Origin: Salarchaeum sp. JOR-1
GTDB lineage: Archaea; Halobacteriota; Halobacteria; Halobacteriales; Halobacteriaceae
DNA: 64,000 nt
Direction of reading: 5' to 3'
Assembly: GCF_007833275.1 (NCBI RefSeq)
Contig: NZ_CP042241.1
Span: 2,232,001 to 2,296,000, forward strand
Shown here: positions 9,100-64,000 of the stretch, in pieces
Layout of the letters: each line of letters opens with the position of its first letter
How positions within the stretch are numbered: position 1 is the first letter of the stretch
Notes under the pieces: model-generated
Seen by the model: the letters and a program-made list of their open reading frames with translations, nothing else
What the model was told of the DNA's origin: nothing
The model's database searches: none
Made by a program: the position numbers and the translations under genes

Positions 9100-9174
9100 T
9101 GGGCTGGCCAAGAGTTGAACTTGGGGCCTGCTCCGTGTGAAGGAGCCGTCATAACCGGACTAGACCACCAGCCC
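9100..9174 (-). tRNA. tRNA-Val (anticodon CAC), divergent copy
   Basis: The reverse strand folds as a full tRNA: acceptor GGGCTGG paired with CCAGCCC, D-arm GTC/GAC with a GG-containing loop, anticodon stem GCTCC/GGAGC around loop TTCACAC (anticodon CAC), variable AGGCC, T-arm CCAAG/CTTGG around TTCAACT, and discriminator A. The 5' half is nearly identical to the copy at 9404, but acceptor and T-stems differ while remaining fully paired. It looks functional and not degenerate. No CCA is encoded. Confidence 0.88.
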
Positions 9175-9403
9175 TCACCAGTGAGTAGCGCGCGCCACTT
9201 GTTAAATGAACTGGAATGCTGGCTGGTTTCCCAGAAACGAAGGGCTCCTTCAACGAGATTGGTAGACGTGCCCGTGGCTCGACACAGTATCGTTTACCAA
9301 GTAGGTGAATGCAGATCGGCGCGAATTCTGCCGGGCGGGATATCGGGGGCGAGAGCGCTAATGGGGGGTGTGTTCGCTCCTTCGAGAACGGTTAGCAGTC
9401 GTA

Positions 9404-9478
9404 TGGGTCGGGGCGGATTCGAACCGCCGGCCTGCTCCGTGTGAAGGAGCCGTCATAACCGAACTAGACCACCGACCC
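9404..9478 (-). tRNA. tRNA-Val (anticodon CAC)
   Basis: The reverse strand folds as a canonical tRNA: acceptor GGGTCGG/CCGACCC, D-arm GTC/GAC, anticodon stem GCTCC/GGAGC with loop TTCACAC (CAC, reading GTG codons), variable AGGCC, T-arm GGCGG/CCGCC around TTCGAAT, discriminator A. No intron and no encoded CCA. It matches the expected haloarchaeal tRNA-Val layout and is probably the native gene. Confidence 0.95.
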
Positions 9479-52203: not shown

Positions 52204-52704
52204 ATGACACTGCTCGCGCGTGACGTGATGACGGCAGACGTCGAGACCGTCGATGCGGACGACGAGGTCGCGGACGTCCTCGGGAAGCTCTCTCGACGCA
52301 AGTTCAACGGGTTCCCCGTGCTGGAGGACGGCGAGCTCGTTGGCGTGGTGACGCAGCGGGACTTCGTAGATCTGTTCGAGCCGAGCGACCGCACGCTCTG
52401 GATTCCGGTCGGCCTCCCGCCGTTTTTGGAGACTGTCGAGTACGCCATCGACCTGTCGTGGGACGAACTCGACGCGGAACTCGATCTGGCGGCGGCCGCC
52501 GGGAAGGCCGTCCGGGAGGTGATGACGCGGGACGTGGAAACGGTGTCGCCGGACGCATCCATCGACGACGTGCTCGACATCCTCGCGAGCGACGACCCGA
52601 ACGTGAACCGCGTGCCCGTGCTGGACGACGGCGACATCGTGGGCATCATCACGCGCGAGGACGTGGTGCGTGCGCTCCGAGACGAGCGCGCATCGAAACC
52701 CTGA
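52204..52704 (+). CDS. Two-CBS-domain protein
   Basis: A 166-residue protein made of a CBS pair: ARDVMTADVETVDADDEVAD with FNGFPVLEDGELVGVVTQRD, then REVMTRDVETVSPDASIDDV with NRVPVLDDGDIVGIITREDV. CBS pairs bind adenosyl ligands and sense energy status. A hydrophobic stretch between the repeats (LWIPVGLPPFLETVEYAIDL) is typical of stand-alone archaeal CBS proteins. Partner unknown. Confidence 0.9.
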   Translation: MTLLARDVMTADVETVDADDEVADVLGKLSRRKFNGFPVLEDGELVGVVTQRDFVDLFEPSDRTLWIPVGLPPFLETVEYAIDLSWDELDAELDLAAAAGKAVREVMTRDVETVSPDASIDDVLDILASDDPNVNRVPVLDDGDIVGIITREDVVRALRDERASKP

Positions 52705-52729
52705 CTTCTCGGGCGGTTCGATTCCGGAT

Positions 52730-53638
52730 GTGTCCCGGTATCGGAACCTCTCGTTGTTCCTCGTGCTCGCCGCGGCGTGGGGAGCGGCGTTCATGGCCAT
52801 CAAGGCGGGGTTGGCGTACTTTCCGCCAGTACTGTTCGCGGCGGTGCGGTACGACGTCGCCGGCGTGTTGATGTGTGCGTACGCGTGGTACGCGACCGAC
52901 CACCCCCGGCCCGAGAGCCGGGGGGAGTGGCTGCTCGTCGGAGTCGGCGCGACGTTCATCATCGCGGGCTATCACGCGTTCCTGTTCGTGGGGGAGACGA
53001 GTCCGGAGGTGTCGAGCGCCGCGGCCGCGGTGGTGGTGAGCCTGAGTCCCGTGCTGACCACGGGGTTCAGTCGCGGCCTCCTGCCGTCGGAGCGCCTCGC
53101 GCCCGCGGGCGTGCTCGGACTGCTCTTCGGGCTGGCGGGCGTGGTCGTGCTCGCCACCGGCGGCAGTGCCGCGCTCGGCGACGTCGGGTCGGGGGAGGCG
53201 CTAGTGTTCGCGGCGGCCGCGTGCTTCGCGCTCGGGAGCGTGCTCACCGAGCGCATCGACGCGTCGCTCCCCATCGAGACGATGGAGGGCTGGTCGATGC
53301 TCCTCGGCGCGCTCCTGATGCACGCCGCGAGCCTCGCCGTCGGCGAACCCCTCGAGGTTCGGTGGACGTGGGAGGCCGTCGCCGCGCTCGCCTACCTCTC
53401 GCTCGCCGCGAGCGCCCTCGGGTTCCTCATCTACTTCGACCTCCTCGACCGACTCGGGCCCATCCAGATCAACCTCGTCTCCTACGTCGCCCCCGTCTTC
53501 GCCGCCATCACGGGCTTCCTCGTCCTCGGCGAAGAACTGGACTGGACGACCGGCGCGGGCTTCCTCGTCATCTTCGCGGGGTTCTGCCTCGTGAAACGCC
53601 GCGCGATACGCGACGAACTCGCGTCCTGGCGGACGTGA
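52730..53638 (+). CDS. DMT-superfamily (EamA) transporter
   Basis: A 302-residue protein with ten helices in two EamA repeats: FLVLAAAWGAAFMAIKAGLA at the start and ALAYLSLAASALGFLIYFD to the end. The start is taken as GTG 52730 (VSRYRNLSLF), 26 bp after the CBS gene; a GTG at 52670 inside that gene would add 20 polar residues. Likely exports a metabolite; substrate unknown. Last intact core gene before the gene-poor region. Confidence 0.88.
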   Translation: MSRYRNLSLFLVLAAAWGAAFMAIKAGLAYFPPVLFAAVRYDVAGVLMCAYAWYATDHPRPESRGEWLLVGVGATFIIAGYHAFLFVGETSPEVSSAAAAVVVSLSPVLTTGFSRGLLPSERLAPAGVLGLLFGLAGVVVLATGGSAALGDVGSGEALVFAAAACFALGSVLTERIDASLPIETMEGWSMLLGALLMHAASLAVGEPLEVRWTWEAVAALAYLSLAASALGFLIYFDLLDRLGPIQINLVSYVAPVFAAITGFLVLGEELDWTTGAGFLVIFAGFCLVKRRAIRDELASWRT

Positions 53639-54065: not shown

Positions 54066-54140
54066 GCCGAACACATCCGCTCCTCGCCGAACACCCCACC
54101 CCACACCCCCACCCCCAACGACATAATAAACTACCAAAAT
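54066..54140 (+). repeat. Left arm of a long diverged inverted repeat
   Basis: Positions 54080-54113 are the exact reverse complement of 56226-56259 (34 bp). Allowing three mismatches the match extends from 54066 to 56273. Inward, 54118-54137 matches 56200-56220 with three mismatches, and further similarity (GAGTTAT, GGGGACTGG, GTGGTGGGGT elements) continues to about 54.25 kb on the left and back to about 56.05 kb on the right. The arms enclose about 2.2 kb. Confidence 0.8.
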
Positions 54141-54159
54141 AGGGGCTTTGGAGTTATAG

Positions 54160-54660
54160 TAATCGGGGTGGGGGACTGGTGGGTGTGGGGGAGGTGGTGG
54201 GGTGGATGGGTGGTTGGGAGGGTGGTTGGGAGTGGATTTGTGTGGGGTGGGGTGTGTGTGTGGGTAGTTGTGGTATTTGGGCGAGTGGGTTGTGGGGTGT
54301 TTGGGTTCGATTTGAAATTGTGGGGTGTAGTTCTGAGGGACGGTTTCTGTGGTGGGGTGCTGGTCTGTGGGGGTGTTGGGTGGGTTTTGTGTGGTATTTT
54401 TTTGTGGTGTCTATGCTGGGTGGTGGGTTGTGTTTCATGGTGGTGGATTGGCTTTTTATGTGGAGTTGGTTGGTGTAGTTTTGGGGTGTTCGTATTTTTT
54501 GGGTGGGAGGGCGGGGTGGTTGCTGTTGTGGGGTTGGGTGGGGTGTGTGTCTGTCGGGGGGGTTGGGGTGTCTGGGAGGAAGTTGTGTTGGATCTGGTGT
54601 ATCTGTGGCGGTAGTGTGAACCTCATGGGTTTATGTGGTGGTCGGTAATTGGGTGGTTTT
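54160..54660 (+). other. G+T-only-like tract
   Basis: For about 500 nt the + strand is composed almost entirely of G and T with very few A and C, and holds many GGG runs. Frames in it code only for low-complexity Trp/Val/Gly or Pro/Thr/His protein and carry no start or ribosome signals I trust. It is not explained by any gene. Many runs could form G-quadruplexes. Confidence 0.7.
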
Positions 54661-54685
54661 GATGGGGTTTAGTAGTTCATTGTCA

Positions 54686-54790
54686 TTGACAGCCTCCTTT
54701 GCGTGAGGGAGGGAGGGGCTCAAGCGGTGGGCGTGTCGGGTTTGTCAGTTCCATTTCATCGGACAGCCGGTCAGTTCGAATCTGGCAGGT
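54686..54790 (-). mobile_element. Solitary right-end relic of an IS605-family (tnpB) element
   Basis: On the reverse strand a KPDTPTA-stop tail (stop at 54720-54722) is followed by hairpin CCTCC/GGAGG (54693-54697 with 54708-54712) and then TCAA (TTGA at 54686-54689 on +). The + strand 54718-54739 matches the end of the tnpB copy at 59053-59074 in 20 of 22 positions. This is the 3' end of a tnpB with its end hairpin, without the rest of the element. Confidence 0.5.
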
Positions 54791-55930
54791 TGTTCAGGGA
54801 CTGGGAGGGGATGGGATGGGGGGGCGGTTGGGAGTGTTAGGCTCTGGGTACTTCTAGGTTCTATTGGATGTGGACTCTCAGAGTTGGTTGTGCCTTTGGG
54901 AGTTTGGCAGTTGTCGGTGGATGGGGAGGTTCTTCTGGTGGTGGTTGCTAGTGGTCTGGCATTGCGCTGAGTCTGTGTGGGAGTTAGTTGTTTATTGACT
55001 GGTTCTAGATTCTGTTTCTTTGTTTGGGGTGGATTGGTCGCCGTCGTAGGGGAGGGTTGGGAATCTGGTCTGGTTTGGCAAATTCGTATGGTCTCGTATG
55101 GCGGCTTGGCACGTTACTGTCCACGTTGCACGGGACTGTCCATGATGGGGACTCGGAGGGGTGTTTGAGCGGTGGTCTGTTGTCACATGTGATGGCGTGT
55201 CTTCATGCCGTGACTGGGTGGTATTGGGTTCGGTTCGCCGAGTAGTGCTGTACGTTCTCGTGTTTGGCCGGCTGTCCTGTGTCCTGTTGGCGAGCAATCG
55301 TCCGCTGGTGAGCGCCGTTACAGGGTGGCGTCGTTGCTGTAGCGTCCGGCCAGCAGGTACTGTGCCGTGCCGACTCTCTCGGGCTGTCTCGCCCTTCGGA
55401 CATGCATGGCTATGCGTTCTCGCCAGCGGTAGACCGGGCCACGGCGAGCACGCACACCGCCAGGCTGCCTGTGCGATCGTGCTATCCCGACTAGCATGGC
55501 CAACACGTGGGTTCTTGGTGGTAGATGTTGTCGGTGAGAACCCTGTAAGCGCGTTTGCCCCGACACATGGACAGTATTGGTGAGGATGCGGAGAGGGGGA
55601 GGGGGCAGCACCTGTATGAGGGGTGCGGTCAACTCGGTGGCGTTCCGTGTGTGCGACCGCGGTCTGCGCACCTAGCGGGTGGTTCGGAGCCGCGACGCCT
55701 GCCATACCAATGGGACGTGTGGCTGGTGGTGTTGGTGTACGTGAAGGCGCCGATCCGCTGCGCAGTCAGTGGGTCGGCCATATACGCGGTGTCTCAATCG
55801 CCATGGTAGCGTCCAGCCTCTCACCCCCGCTCCATCCGGCCCCATCACCACCTACTCAGCCAGTCGGTCATCTATTCAGAACTACCCTCTCGCCAACGTG
55901 AAACTAGCTGCATAGAGCCATGCTGATCAC
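54791..55930. other. Gene-free centre of the inverted-repeat block
   Basis: Base composition returns towards balance between about 55.2 and 55.9 kb. Open frames on both strands exist (for example 55203-55705 reverse), but they have arginine/threonine-rich, non-acidic composition unlike haloarchaeal proteins. I cannot support a gene. A structured RNA is possible but no known RNA signature is recognised. Confidence 0.5.
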
Positions 55931-55939
55931 TCAACGCCG

Positions 55940-56150
55940 CGTATTCCAGTGTTCAGCAACCACCACCAACCCCGGGCCCAGCCAATCAACCACTCCGCAT
56001 CATCCCCTCCTCTTCCTTGCCCAGGCAAGTCGCTCCACTCTGAACCACCACCGACCCACTTCACACACCCTCACGCTCCGCATTGCAACCCCACCACCAC
56101 TCCACTCCAGTCCCCACTCTCCCCACTCTCTCCAGTCCCCACTCCATAAC
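55940..56150 (+). other. C+A-rich tract (complement of a G+T tract)
   Basis: The + strand is dominated by C and A, with many CCACC and CCCC runs. In the context of the inverted repeat it is the mirror of the G+T tract at 54160, so the whole block is roughly symmetric. No coding signal beyond Pro/Thr/His low complexity. Confidence 0.6.
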
Positions 56151-56199
56151 TCGTTGGTTGTGTTTCATTTCGGTATACTTGGGGCTCTACTGCCTGTGT

Positions 56200-56273
56200 G
56201 TTGGTGGTGTATTGTGTCGTGGGGTGGTGGGGGTGTGGGGTGGGGTGTTCGGCGAGGAGTGGGTGTGTTTGGC
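56200..56273 (-). repeat. Right arm of the long diverged inverted repeat
   Basis: The exact 34-bp core is 56226-56259, reverse complement of 54080-54113. Towards the inside, 56200-56220 also matches 54118-54137 with three differences. Outside 56273 similarity stops. A further G+T-rich stretch runs from here to about 56350. Confidence 0.8.
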
Positions 56274-57507
56274 GGGCTGGGTGGTGTGTGGGTGGGTGTG
56301 GTGGATGTAGCTGCTGGGGTGGCTGCGTGGTATGGTGGGGGGCGGTGTGGGTGAAACAGTGGGAGTCGGCGTGAGCCGAGTGGAGCTGGTGTGTCGTGGG
56401 TGAACACGGGACAGGAGAGAGGGGTGCGTTGACGGGTGGGCCGCAGGGTGTGAGCAGCCCGCCAAGCGGGCGGCGCGGGAGGGAGAGAGAGAGAGAGAGG
56501 GGGTGGGCGGTGAGTGGGAGTAGCTGAAAGGTGATTGTCGTCCGCGACGTCGGCGGGCCGGCGTTTCACCATGTAGTTCGATATTGTCGAACGGGTCGAT
56601 CGCAACGCTGTCGCCCGTGAGCAGCTCATCAGCAGAACGACCGGTGTTTCAGCGGTCGTTCGGCCAGGCGGTGTCGCTGTGAGTCAGTGGGCTGGGTAGG
56701 GAGTGGATCTGGCGCAGCGGCTAGAAGGCGGCCTCGAGGTAACGGGCGAAGGGTGCCCCCACGGTGGGTGTGCCCGTTCGGTGACTTGCGGTGCCTGCGG
56801 ACCGCCACGAGGAGCGCTCCGAGCACCGTGGCGCTGCGTGTCAGTCATGCGGCCAGGACGATCGTGGCGGCAGCTCTGGTGACGCGTGTTCGCAGCCCGA
56901 CGCGGACAGTGCTGCCGCCCAGCTAGTATTTCCTGTCTGCCCGTCGGCACCACGATCTCGAACACGACGGTCGGTACAGCCTCGGTGACGGGTACTGGCC
57001 CATTCGGGCGTGGGTTCGACGACGCACTCGCAGTCAGCCGCGACGGTGTCCAAGGCCACCCAGCGTGGCACCGCCACCGTCGCCCCACCACCCATCGCCA
57101 CCCGAACCACGCGCATCCAAGACCGCCGCCACCTCCTCGCCCCCCACGCCACCCACCAACTCACTAACTCACTACCTCACCCACCGCACCGACTGGCCCA
57201 CCCCACAGTACCCCCGCCGCCGCCACACTCCGAAGACGATACACAGGCACCGCACCGGATCGGATCGGATCGGATCGGACCGCATTGCACGGTGCTCACC
57301 TTTAATTTAGCAGACTATCCCTGCCTGCTCTTGGTATGTCCGGGGTGACCATCGGTGGCCGGGTGTTTCCAAGGGGTGGCACGACGTGTGACGGGTGTGG
57401 CGGCCGGACTCAAGGAGTGGCTGCCGGAGGTGTTGTCGGTGATTGCTTGTGTGGGAAAGCCCGGGGGTTTTTACCTGTGGGTGGGTGCACCGAGAGGTAC
57501 CGGAGCC
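56274..57507. other. Gene-free stretch with simple repeats
   Basis: No supported gene. It holds a GA dinucleotide repeat (about 56483-56499), a C+A-rich tract (about 57060-57240) and four tandem CGGAT units (57256-57275). On the reverse strand near 56570-56640 a short frame (ADELLTGDSVAIDPFDNI) and near 57000-57070 another (ALDTVAADCECVVEPTPEWA) look like protein fragments in different frames, suggesting decayed genes. A TTTAATTTA element at 57301 may be the promoter of the next gene. Confidence 0.5.
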
Positions 57508-57765: not shown

Positions 57766-58469
57766 CGGCCAGCCACCACGCCACAACCCGAACAAGCGAA
57801 CGGAGACGCCACCGCCAGCACCACTCCCCCACCCCCCAATGGAGAACCGAGGCCGGGGAGAGGTCGTCAGTCGGCGCGGGCGTCGCCGTGCAGCCCCGCC
57901 ACGCGAGGCCGTGGGGATACAGCGCCAACGACGAGCTGAAAGATTTCCGCAACGGAAAATAATTAGTACGGCGTGGAACAGTTCTATCTGGGTTCGCAGC
58001 GGCCACGACTGTTGCCAGGCAGTCACGCGATGCAATCGGCCCCACACCCAGTGAGCAACCCACAGAGGCACACCCCACACCCAGTGAACAACCCACAGAG
58101 GCACACCCCACACACAACCGGCGCCTGCCCTCGCCATCAACACCACCCATCCCCCCTTTCCCGCTTTCCCGTTCCGTTTCCCCAGTTCACTCCGTATCGG
58201 CACCACACGCAGAGTGTCCCAAGAGAACTGATCAGCGTATCAACGTTTCGTAGACGGCCACTCGCCACCCCGGGGCGGGCAGACTCGCACGATCCAGCGG
58301 CGACCAGGCCACGACGCATACCGATCGCCGGCCGCCCCGCAGTCACGCGACCGCACGCAACCGGCGATAATCGAAGCCGACAGCCCACACGTGTGGCTGC
58401 CGGGCGACCCACGAAACGATGTGACCGTCGGGGAACAGCGGCTTCACTGAACAGTGGGTAGGTCGGGCT
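57766..58469. other. Gene-free stretch between HalOD1 gene and stress-protein pseudogene
   Basis: Contains C+A-rich tracts (57780-57840 and 58041-58160) and the 33-bp tandem repeat. Open frames such as 57607-58206 on the reverse strand translate the repeat into Trp/Val-rich sequence and are not convincing. Confidence 0.5.
58041..58119 (+). repeat. 33-bp tandem repeat
   Basis: Two full copies (58041-58073, 58074-58106) differ at one base (GTGAG versus GTGAA) and a partial third begins at 58107 with CCCACAC. The unit is C+A-rich and has no internal dyad. There are no spacers, so it is not a CRISPR array. Confidence 0.85.
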
Positions 58470-59037: not shown

Positions 59038-60015
59038 TCAGCTACCCACCGCTGAAGCGGTGGGCTTGTCGGTGGACTCCCGTTCTGCCGACACAGGCGT
59101 GTCGGACGCCACTTCAGTAGCGTTCACGGTCATTATCCCCGACTTCAGGGCGTACTGACAGAACGCCCCTCCAGCGAGGGGCTTCTGCCCTCGCTGGAGT
59201 CTCAGCGCCAGTTTCCGGGCTACGTTTTTCGCCGCGTTGTAATCGGCGTTCACCGAGTACGAACAGTCCAAGCAGGCGAAACGTTGCCCGTCGCGGTTTT
59301 CTTCGAGGGTACAGCCACACTTCGAGCATTGCTGGCTCGTGTAGGACGGTTCGACTGTCTCAACCACAATGCCGTGCTCGTCGGCTTTATACGCGACTTG
59401 GTCCTGCAACGCACGGAACGTCCACTGCTGGAATTTCTTGCCGTCGCTAATGCGCTCTCGAATCTGCTCCAAATCCTCGAACGCGATGTGCGTACAGCCA
59501 TGGCGTTTGGCCTCTGCAATAATTTCTTTAGAACACCGATGGAGGGAGTCTTCGCTCCACCGTCCGAACCTGTCACCGATACGCTGGTAGGTCAAGTGGG
59601 CGCTTCGCGTGCCGGTCTGTTGGAGGCTGGCTCGCCGTTTCTCGAACTCGCGGCGTTGATGATTGAGGTAGTCAGCGTTACCGACGAACCTGCCCGTTGA
59701 GGTCACGGCGATGTGGTCGTCAACGTTGCAGTCCACGCCAAGGACTCTCGAATCCTCGGCTTTCTCAGGACTGGCAACGTCGAGTTCCCGTTCCATCGCG
59801 GCGTGCAGGTAGAACTCGTCGGCTTTGCTGTCGTAGTGGACAGTACTCGTACTGAACGAGTAGTCGTCGTTCAGCAGGTACTCGCCGTGTGGTGTGCCTT
59901 CGGGGTTGTCGGGCAGATCGTATTCGCATTCGACTCTGCCGGTGACAGTGGCGAGACTCACCTTGTCGCGGTAGTAGGTAGCGGCTCGCTTGTCGTAGAC
60001 GATGCTGAACGTATC
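59038..60015 (-). pseudogene. tnpB: N-terminally truncated tnpB (copy 1)
   Basis: The RuvC part of a TnpB is intact: GVDCNVDDHIAV, HIAFEDLEQIRERI with the RuvC-II Glu, YTSQQCSKCGCTLEENRDGQ zinc finger with a later CLDC, and NADYNAAKNVA with the last Asp. About 90-100 N-terminal residues are missing; at 60015 the frame runs into the right end of the IS element at 60016, whose bases supply a meaningless MNLNIPTLG start. TnpB is an RNA-guided endonuclease of IS605-family elements. Its 3' end overlaps the hairpin at 59045-59064. Confidence 0.85.
59045..59064 (-). ncRNA. Right-end hairpin / probable omega-RNA 3' scaffold of tnpB copy 1
   Basis: CCCACCGC (59045-59052), TGAA, GCGGTGGG (59057-59064): an 8-bp perfect hairpin inside the last codons of tnpB copy 1. 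In IS605-family elements the guide RNA overlaps the tnpB 3' end and finishes with such an end hairpin. Presence is seen; RNA is inferred. Confidence 0.5.
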
Positions 60016-60075
60016 TTGACCTCCTCCCACCCGTGAACGGGTGGGATTCCCAAGCGTTGGGATATTAAGGTTCAC
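60016..60075 (-). ncRNA. Probable omega-RNA scaffold at the right end of the IS
   Basis: From the tnpB stop region to the terminal TCAA the reverse strand holds an inner dyad (CCCAACGC.TTGGG region, 60048-60060) and the end hairpin CCCACCCG-TTCA-CGGGTGGG (60026-60045). In TnpB systems the RNA scaffold ends at the element boundary and the next 16-20 nt outside form the guide; here that is 59996-60015, inside tnpB copy 1. The transcript is inferred. Confidence 0.45.
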
Positions 60076-61334
60076 GGAACGACCTGTTCTTGTGGGGCGA
60101 CTTGCCCCGTGGATTTGTCGAACAGGCGTACCGATGGCTGAGCCAAGCAGCCGTTACTCCTATCCTGTGAGGGACTCGGAGTTACCGTCGCTCGCATATT
60201 CTCCGCCGCGTTCAGGTCGCTATTGGCGACCAACTCGCAATTCTCACAGACGTACAGCCCACGCTCAACACGATTCGAGTCAGCTTCTGTCCCACACTCA
60301 CAGCAGGTTTTCGATGTTTTCAGATCGGCTTCATCCACACGGTCTACGTCGATACCGCGCTCTTGGGCTTTGTACTCGATGTGACTGAGAAGCGTCTCAA
60401 AGGCCCAGTCGTGGAGACGTTTGTTGCCGTGTCTCCCCCAGTCTTCATCGTTACGGATGTTCTTTGGATGACCGACTGCTATCGTCCCAATATCACGGGC
60501 GGCACATTGCTCGACGATGTCTTTCGACACCGCATGCAGGAAATGGTCTTGTCGCCGGGATTTCTTCTGTCTTACCCACTCTGCGTGATCGCTCGGCCCG
60601 TTCTCACCGTCCGTGTCGTATTCTTGCTGGCGGAAGTAGTGGGCGTCTTCTTTCAGGGCATTGCCCGGATACAGCAGTGTCTCGTCACCGACAGAGACAG
60701 CCGCCGTGTTGCAGATGCCGAGGTCGATACCGGCTGTTTTCTCACCAGGAGTATCGGCTGTCTCGATCCGGCGTTTGCAGACGAAGTGGAGTTCCCACTC
60801 GTCGCCAGTCCAGACAGCACGCACCGTCTGGACGGTTTCGACAGCGTCGAGTGTCTGCTCGTCTATTTGGAGCGTGTACTCACAGAGGATGTAGTCTGGG
60901 GCGTAGCGCGACTCTTTCATGTTCGTGCCTTTCGAGAGCCGGACACGGTTGTACTGGGTGTCGAGCTTGAAGCCCTGATTTTTCCACGTCACGGTCGAGC
61001 GTGGGTGGTCGTCGCCGTGTTTGCGGTAGCCGGGTGGGTTCGCGTCCGGGTCGTCCTGTTCGTACCACGAGACGAACGCCTCACCGAGTTCCTGAAGAAC
61101 TCGTTGACTGGATTGTGAGTGCAAATCCGCATAGCGTTCGTGGGATTTGAGGTACGCACAGAGTTCGTCGGCGTCTGGAATGTGGTCGATAGCGTTCCAG
61201 ACTCGTTGAATCGTCCACCGCCCGACGTTCCACAATTTCGACGCGGCAAAGCCATGCGAATCGAGGTCGCCACCGACTTGCGAATGGTTACGGATACTCG
61301 CTTTGAGTGTCCGAGTGACGACCTGATTCGACAT
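60072..61334 (-). CDS. tnpB: TnpB RNA-guided nuclease, IS605 family (copy 2)
   Basis: A 420-residue TnpB: RuvC-I Asp in AGIDLGICNTAAV, zinc finger SKTCCECGTEADSN with CENC, and RuvC-III Asp in NSDLNAAENM. At the RuvC-II position the sequence is TIAVGHPKNIR, lacking the usual Glu of IxxEDL. Some TnpB groups are known to have a displaced catalytic acid, so loss of activity should not be assumed. ATG 61334 touches a perfect palindrome. Intact length for the family. No IS200-type tnpA nearby. Confidence 0.9.
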   Translation of the reverse strand: MSNQVVTRTLKASIRNHSQVGGDLDSHGFAASKLWNVGRWTIQRVWNAIDHIPDADELCAYLKSHERYADLHSQSSQRVLQELGEAFVSWYEQDDPDANPPGYRKHGDDHPRSTVTWKNQGFKLDTQYNRVRLSKGTNMKESRYAPDYILCEYTLQIDEQTLDAVETVQTVRAVWTGDEWELHFVCKRRIETADTPGEKTAGIDLGICNTAAVSVGDETLLYPGNALKEDAHYFRQQEYDTDGENGPSDHAEWVRQKKSRRQDHFLHAVSKDIVEQCAARDIGTIAVGHPKNIRNDEDWGRHGNKRLHDWAFETLLSHIEYKAQERGIDVDRVDEADLKTSKTCCECGTEADSNRVERGLYVCENCELVANSDLNAAENMRATVTPSPSQDRSNGCLAQPSVRLFDKSTGQVAPQEQVVP

Positions 61335-61362
61335 ATGTAAGCACAGTATTTGTGCTTACATA
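61334..61362. promoter_or_regulatory. Perfect palindrome at the tnpB copy 2 start
   Basis: TATGTAAGCACA (61334-61345), GTATT, TGTGCTTACATA (61351-61362): 12-bp perfect arms directly upstream of and including the start codon region. It could be an operator limiting tnpB expression or an RNA hairpin over the start. It is distinct from the left-end transposition hairpin at 61440. Confidence 0.6.
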
Positions 61363-61560
61363 AGCGTTGGACATCTCGACGTGGAATATCCAGCCGTGGC
61401 TACGAGCGTGGAGAGATTCCCAATTGTCGGCTTCATCCACACCCGTGAACAGGTGGGCTTTCGCCTCGCTACCGCCGTAAACTTACCAATATGGGAACTT
61501 GGCGGGGTGGGAGGGTTTCATGTGAGTTCAGAACGTGTTCGCGGAGTCTGGATACGCTCG

Positions 61561-63894: not shown

Positions 63895-64000
63895 ATGACA
63901 GACCACTCCACCCAACAACCCCTCACAACATGGACCACCACCAACACCGACACCGAGTCCAAGACTGAGGCCGACGACACCACCACCGACACGACCACCG
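63895..64000 (+). CDS. Start of an unidentified gene, cut by the window end
   Basis: From ATG 63895 at least 35 codons are open: MTDHSTQQPLTTW followed by a Thr/Asp-rich run (TNTDTESKTEADDTTTDTTT). The acidic, Thr-rich start is typical of accessory haloarchaeal proteins. Too little is visible to name it. An AT-rich upstream region supports a real promoter. Confidence 0.5.
   Translation, partial: MTDHSTQQPLTTWTTTNTDTESKTEADDTTTDTTT

Follow-up and report, generated by a model that had tools for sequence, protein, structure and literature searches.

Strand-biased substitution beside a strand-switch point in non-coding DNA at the border of a haloarchaeal accessory region

Introduction

Strand-biased mutation is usually known from weak skews that extend over whole chromosomes. 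Single-stranded DNA provides one setting: in mitochondria the H strand, while single-stranded, is depleted of C and A through deamination (PMC3269012). Transcribed regions are a second setting; in human genes the non-template strand is rich in G+T (PMC10030826). Palindrome-associated transposable elements (PATEs) are IS605-derived mobile elements of haloarchaea, described in Haloquadratum walsbyi (PMC3119063).

The locus reported here brings these subjects together. It is a strongly strand-asymmetric block in a haloarchaeal chromosome, and it contains a PATE that serves as a local recorder: its starting sequence is known, and on one strand half the sites that held A or C have changed. A limited open-access literature search found no haloarchaeal blocks of this kind. 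The window, meaning the whole stretch of 64,000 nucleotides analysed, corresponds to C2:2232001–2296000 of a host genome in two contigs (2,344,456 and 178,915 bases). Coordinates are those of the window unless another locus is named.

Place, composition and coding content of the block

The block consists of non-coding DNA where the core chromosome meets an accessory region. Gene order is shared with the sister species, the one congener compared, as far as the 3' limit of the EamA transporter gene; the block and everything to the right of it are absent from that species. Rightward lies accessory DNA of lower or uneven G+C with TnpB/IS1341-type elements. Two tandem TnpB genes occupy 59038–61334, and a match to the sense-overlapping RNA sot0042 is located at 60025–60187. 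Short repeats in the same region include 4.8 units of CGGAT at 57256–57279, an array present in other haloarchaeal genomes too, and a CA-rich 33-bp tandem repeat at 58040–58113 (2.2 copies, 97%). A run of genes begins at 63895–64000 and continues into L013 (1–6906); its sense strands are strongly A/C-rich, its proteins are rich in Thr, Pro and Asp, and of its three genes the two that were scanned, the outer ones, have no Pfam match. Elsewhere in the window, tRNA-Val (CAC) is predicted twice at 9100–9478, about 300 bp apart, with one prediction only reaching the Rfam gathering score.

G+T on the plus strand amounts to 0.84–0.93 at 54.2–54.6 kb and has fallen to about 0.5 at 55.4 kb. Across the 2.5-Mb host genome, 52-base stretches containing no more than three letters other than G or T occur only at 54177–54576 and 56194–56252. 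Equally skewed 300-bp windows in 1.38 Mb of other haloarchaeal DNA were found only inside open coding frames. Further G/T- or A/C-rich patches in a sample of the host genome were rejected as comparable blocks: they fall within open coding frames whose sense strands are A/C-rich. In the extreme G+T segment, G-quadruplex (G4) motifs take up 130 of 551 bases on the plus strand and none on the minus strand; the value for a genome sample is 0.04%.

The asymmetry changes sides at no fewer than three strand-switch points, at about 54.14, 56.15 and 57.29 kb, all locally AT-rich (table 1). As judged by composition, G/T enrichment points away from every one of them and fades over 0.3–1.2 kb. The strand asymmetry reported in the first-pass annotation is real and exceptional in this genome. 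The approximate mirror symmetry that it also described is not borne out, the DNA at 55.35–55.8 kb being balanced and at least three switches taking the place of a single axis. Nor is the right half the C+A complement of the left: the C+A part is short (55.8–56.13 kb), and G+T returns at 56.15–56.5 kb, through and past the right arm. The statement that the block holds no recognisable gene stands, the six X-masked frames over 55.23–57.5 kb giving no convincing match to Pfam. A known structured RNA was rejected as well, no Rfam match in the block reaching the gathering threshold. For G+T-only blocks in general, composition alone is no ground for calling an element or an RNA gene.

Table 1. Features of the block and its surroundings (window coordinates).
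Feature	Position	Strand	Remarks
EamA-family transporter	52670..53638	+	last core gene left of the accessory region
Left arm	54066..54138		C/A-rich on plus, i.e. G/T-rich on minus reading outward; perfect 34-bp core 54080–54113
Switch point 1	54120..54165		plus strand C/A-rich leftward, G/T-rich rightward; AT-rich; putatively promoter-like
Extreme G+T segment	54150..54683	+	G+T 0.76–0.93; G-quadruplex-capable on plus
Decayed non-coding PATE/IS605-type MITE copy	54684..55246 (~560 bp)	-	'RE' side at 54684
PATE 'LE' side	near 55210–55246	-	remnant of CCACGGCCTGAAGGCCGTGGTATTG
Block middle	55350..55800		balanced, G+T 0.47–0.62
C/A-rich-on-plus segment (G/T-rich on minus)	55800..56130	-	reads leftward from switch point 2
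Switch point 2	56140..56190		AT-rich
Outward G+T segment	56190..56500	+	G+T 0.62–0.90; reaches beyond the block as first annotated
Right arm	56201..56273		5/5 inter-arm transitions give more G/T on the right-arm outward strand
Switch point 3	57280..57320		C/A at 57.08–57.24 kb to weak G/T at 57.32–57.48 kb
TnpB (IS1341-type) element, control	60014..61468	-	same accessory region; no marked strand-biased substitution

The inverted-repeat arms

Two facing arms had been described 2.2 kb apart, with 34 bp perfect and about 75 bp carrying few mismatches. These are confirmed as an inverted repeat of 73 columns with 89% identity, a perfect stretch of 34 bp and one 1-nt gap (BLAST E 5e-19); its score of 104 compares with at most 42 in 500 dinucleotide shuffles. 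The fading similarity said to extend for 200–300 bp was not recovered. Outward it is nil, 419 of the 500 shuffles doing as well, and inward it is marginal (about 65 bp, score 41 against a shuffle maximum of 39). Searches of the host genome, 292 other genomes of the order, plasmids, phages and viral contigs yielded no further copy of the arms. Nothing obvious by eye suggests a target-site duplication beside them; with the accessory region missing entirely from the sister species, no clean empty site is available there.

The arms look like an inverted duplicate of one strand-switch module, comprising an arm and its AT-rich centre. Duplication of this module in inverted orientation would account for the rough mirror symmetry of the block. 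An earlier suggestion, the inverted duplication of a structured RNA gene, is upheld in the look of a duplication and not in the RNA gene: what looks duplicated is a strand-switch module, without a match in Rfam.

A transposable element inside the block

A homology search of 293 genomes of the order identified pieces at 54684–54895, 54818–55050 and 55151–55226, all parts of one element. The parent family is non-coding, 500–590 bp long, with IS605-type near-terminal palindromes, and was found in 72 of the 117 relatives searched. The window copy is assigned to the PATEs by homology over both ends to multicopy haloarchaeal elements, by a near-terminal palindrome and by a length too small for a transposase gene. 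Its relatives carry the near-terminal palindromes CCTCCTCCGCGT..ACGCGGAGG and CCACGGCCTGAAGGCCGTGG, which have decayed in the window copy. The copy resembles the PATEs described previously (PMC3119063) in having near-terminal palindromes, no transposase and no terminal inverted repeats. It differs in that it alone has been rewritten towards G/T on one strand, and a PATE accounts for the insert, not for the block. The proposal of a non-autonomous mobile element thus applies to one piece of about 560 bp; the whole block is not such an element, and the ends of the PATE are not the arms. A match to a known IS family exists for this part of the block only.

Substitutions on the plus strand were counted in two comparisons. 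(i) The window copy was set against 16 other copies, using columns conserved in at least 70% of those. C>T was observed at 55 of 119 sites and A>G at 18 of 63, against G>A at 6 of 116 and T>C at 4 of 93. In total, A/C changed to G/T at 94 of 182 positions and G/T to A/C at 18 of 209 (p 9e-22), and the 16 control copies were all balanced. (ii) Only columns fully conserved in its own subfamily, its closest relatives, were used. Here C>T (28/64) and A>G (15/39) were accompanied by T>G (9/54) and A>T (5/39); G>A (4/79), G>T (3/79) and T>C (0/54) were rare. The totals were 50 of 103 for A/C to G/T and 4 of 133 for the reverse (p ~1e-17). On this strand, C>T and A>G exceed their reverse changes, the pattern of strand-displacement or R-loop-type processes. 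In 36 other PATE copies or fragments, one of them in the same island, the mean asymmetry is -0.05 (sd 0.17); the window copy stands at 51:4. Its changes are mostly transitions, and neither a neighbour-base preference at the changed sites nor a gradient of substitution within the PATE was seen. The arms differ from each other by five transitions in the same direction, towards G/T.

Because a PATE of ordinary composition was converted by C>T and A>G on the plus strand, the G+T of this part was acquired after insertion. The process is local, since the TnpB element 4–6 kb to the right is mostly balanced (e.g. 72:71 and 104:103; largest imbalance 88:61). There is little doubt that local strand-biased substitution rewrote the DNA beside switch point 1 after the PATE had inserted. 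Beyond 55.3 kb, and in the C/A-rich parts, where the mirror-image changes G>A and T>C on the plus strand would be expected, the same bias is deduced from composition, as a single datable insert was found.

Similar blocks in other genomes

A pattern search for G/T runs in 146 genomes, with homopolymers and microsatellites set aside, identified comparable stretches in G050 (two loci) and G180. Among 26 genomes of the family, the 52-base pattern was present only in G000, G050 and G180. The G050 blocks (L194 7655–8200 and L195 7790–8600) have the same form as the window block and start abruptly where GC-rich core meets GC-poorer accessory DNA. A counterpart of the L195 block occupies the same locus in G028. 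Between the two genomes the left flank retains 81% identity, and the right end has also been kept well. In the interior, identity drops to about 67% amid many gaps, and G/T exchanges make up 30 of 61 differences in the first part. This pair, with its edges kept and its fast-evolving interior still G/T, indicates that such a block can outlast speciation while its bases turn over. A small acidic protein (MVLSVWEVFLALFGRGEDPEDEGG...) without a Pfam match is encoded at L195 8608–8830; conservation of its DNA extends to several species within genus g3.

The G180 run (L196, G180:C211, 5970–6205) is G/T-only, lies between inverted origin-type repeats GTTTCCAGTGGAAACCAAGGGGTTGGGGG and adjoins an orc1/cdc6 gene. 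It is read as the strand-asymmetric unwinding region of a haloarchaeal origin. Being short and placed beside orc1/cdc6, it may be a different thing from the window block.

Blocks in L194, L195 and L233 are located at island edges near genes for TraD/HerA-like coupling proteins. These genes (L194 9707–13543, L195 10624–14955, L233 8815–13167) encode 1278–1450 aa and lie at the edges of accessory islands; genes of this type occur in 54 of 117 haloarchaeal genomes and are poorly covered by Pfam and NCBIfam. The coupling gene was rejected as a common cause, and the block as an obligatory component of a conjugation module: 20 regions downstream of homologues, including one (L311) that is N over more than half its length, carry no extreme non-coding block. 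The host genome contains no full coupling-protein homologue.

Proposed mechanism

The process is inferred to act outward from the AT-rich switch points. Moving away from each of them, it would repeatedly leave single-stranded the strand that runs 5'–3' away; alternatively, this strand would be resynthesised inaccurately. C and A on it would then be lost through deamination or G–T wobble mispairing. The likeliest process would be transcription from a divergent, promoter-like switch. G-rich transcripts would form R-loops that expose the RNA-like strand, and the G-runs made by the bias would stabilise more R-loops.

The one-sided G4 motifs fit persistent R-loops, and a strand that is exposed and deaminated, as happens during strand displacement in mitochondria, gains just this combination of C>T and A>G. 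The T>G and C>G changes argue against deamination, as neither is a deamination product. Spontaneous deamination should favour C, yet A>G and C>T are similarly frequent. The lack of a gradient within the PATE speaks against the R-loop account. We know of no general tendency of highly transcribed loci to look like the window block, so that transcription alone cannot suffice. Error-prone resynthesis is a possible source, because T>G and near-equal A>G also fit misincorporation at G–T wobble pairs. The full transcription/R-loop account is one towards which we lean, as somewhat probable.

Alternative explanations

Replication-linked strand displacement is a possible explanation, albeit an unlikely one. 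The switch points would be initiation sites (an origin, a nick or a transfer site of an accessory element), with one strand displaced time and again or copied by an error-prone polymerase, in the manner of the strand-displacement replication of mitochondria. The direction of the bias, with G/T on the strand leaving the switch, fits leading/displaced strand asymmetry, and misincorporation explains T>G and C>G better than deamination does. The short G180 run at an origin adjoining orc1/cdc6, and the island-edge blocks of L194, L195 and L233 near coupling-protein genes, point the same way. However, an ORB-type origin was rejected, the inverted repeats (TTTCCA..GGAAAC plus a G-string) not being found in the window; the block has no visible orc1 neighbour, none of the 20 coupling-gene regions (one N over half its length) carries an extreme non-coding block, and the crowding of several switches into 3 kb is hard to square with origins. 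Selection for a G/T-only strand, as unstructured or G4-forming non-coding RNA or DNA in which changes removing C and A are favoured, would dispense with biased mutation. The kept edges and composition of the G050/G028 pair and the strong, one-sided G4 potential are consistent with it, but the interior of that pair is poorly conserved and exchanges G and T freely, the feature is missing from the sister species and most relatives, and the changes at half of the insert's A/C sites, made without sequence context, have a mutational look. We therefore regard selection as improbable.

Two further readings concern the origin of the sequence itself. A degenerate transposon or MITE spanning the whole block, with the arms as terminal inverted repeats, would suit a 73-bp inverted repeat at 2.2 kb spacing within accessory DNA that the sister species does not have. 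It is nevertheless very improbable: no second copy was detected either in the host genome and the 292 other genomes of the order searched or among plasmids, phages and viral contigs, the six masked frames over 55.23–57.5 kb hold no transposase trace against Pfam, G/T bias continues past the right arm, and no target duplication was seen beside the arms. Growth of low-complexity, microsatellite-like G/T sequence by slippage is scarcely credible. Short tandem units do occur at 54165–54254, but tandem arrays make up only some 110 bp of the G/T part, and within the PATE the order was kept while bases changed, which refutes slippage for that part. Hypermutation by an APOBEC/AID-like deaminase was also rejected, preferred neighbours at mutated C not being found.

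Beyond the transcription/R-loop account, it is conceivable, though we think it rather improbable, that some accessory-region borders in haloarchaea carry dedicated sites of programmed, local, strand-specific hypermutation, at which a specific machinery, be it a deaminase, a polymerase prone to error or a conjugation/R-loop system, would repeatedly expose or resynthesise one strand. The locus turns the matter into a testable archaeal question, namely whether an R-loop, strand displacement or error-prone synthesis is the local process that mutates one strand, and raises a second: why this happens at the edges of acquired DNA.

Comparison with known systems

Kataegis, the strand-coordinated hypermutation of APOBEC/AID type, shares with the block clustered one-strand changes near a fixed point. 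Unlike kataegis, the block shows no sequence context, has A mutated about as often as C, is fixed over evolutionary time and is archaeal. The strand-displacement asymmetry of vertebrate mitochondria resembles it in that one strand loses C and A (C>T, A>G); the block differs in occupying 1–3 kb of a chromosome, in its several switches, in A>G being about equal to C>T and in additional T>G. Transcription and R-loop regions, with their G+T-rich non-template strand, likewise combine GC skew and an excess of G+T with one-sided G4 motifs directed away from a point. Set against these regions the block, whose transcription is putative, has a far stronger asymmetry, reaching 0.93 G+T over 80 bp.
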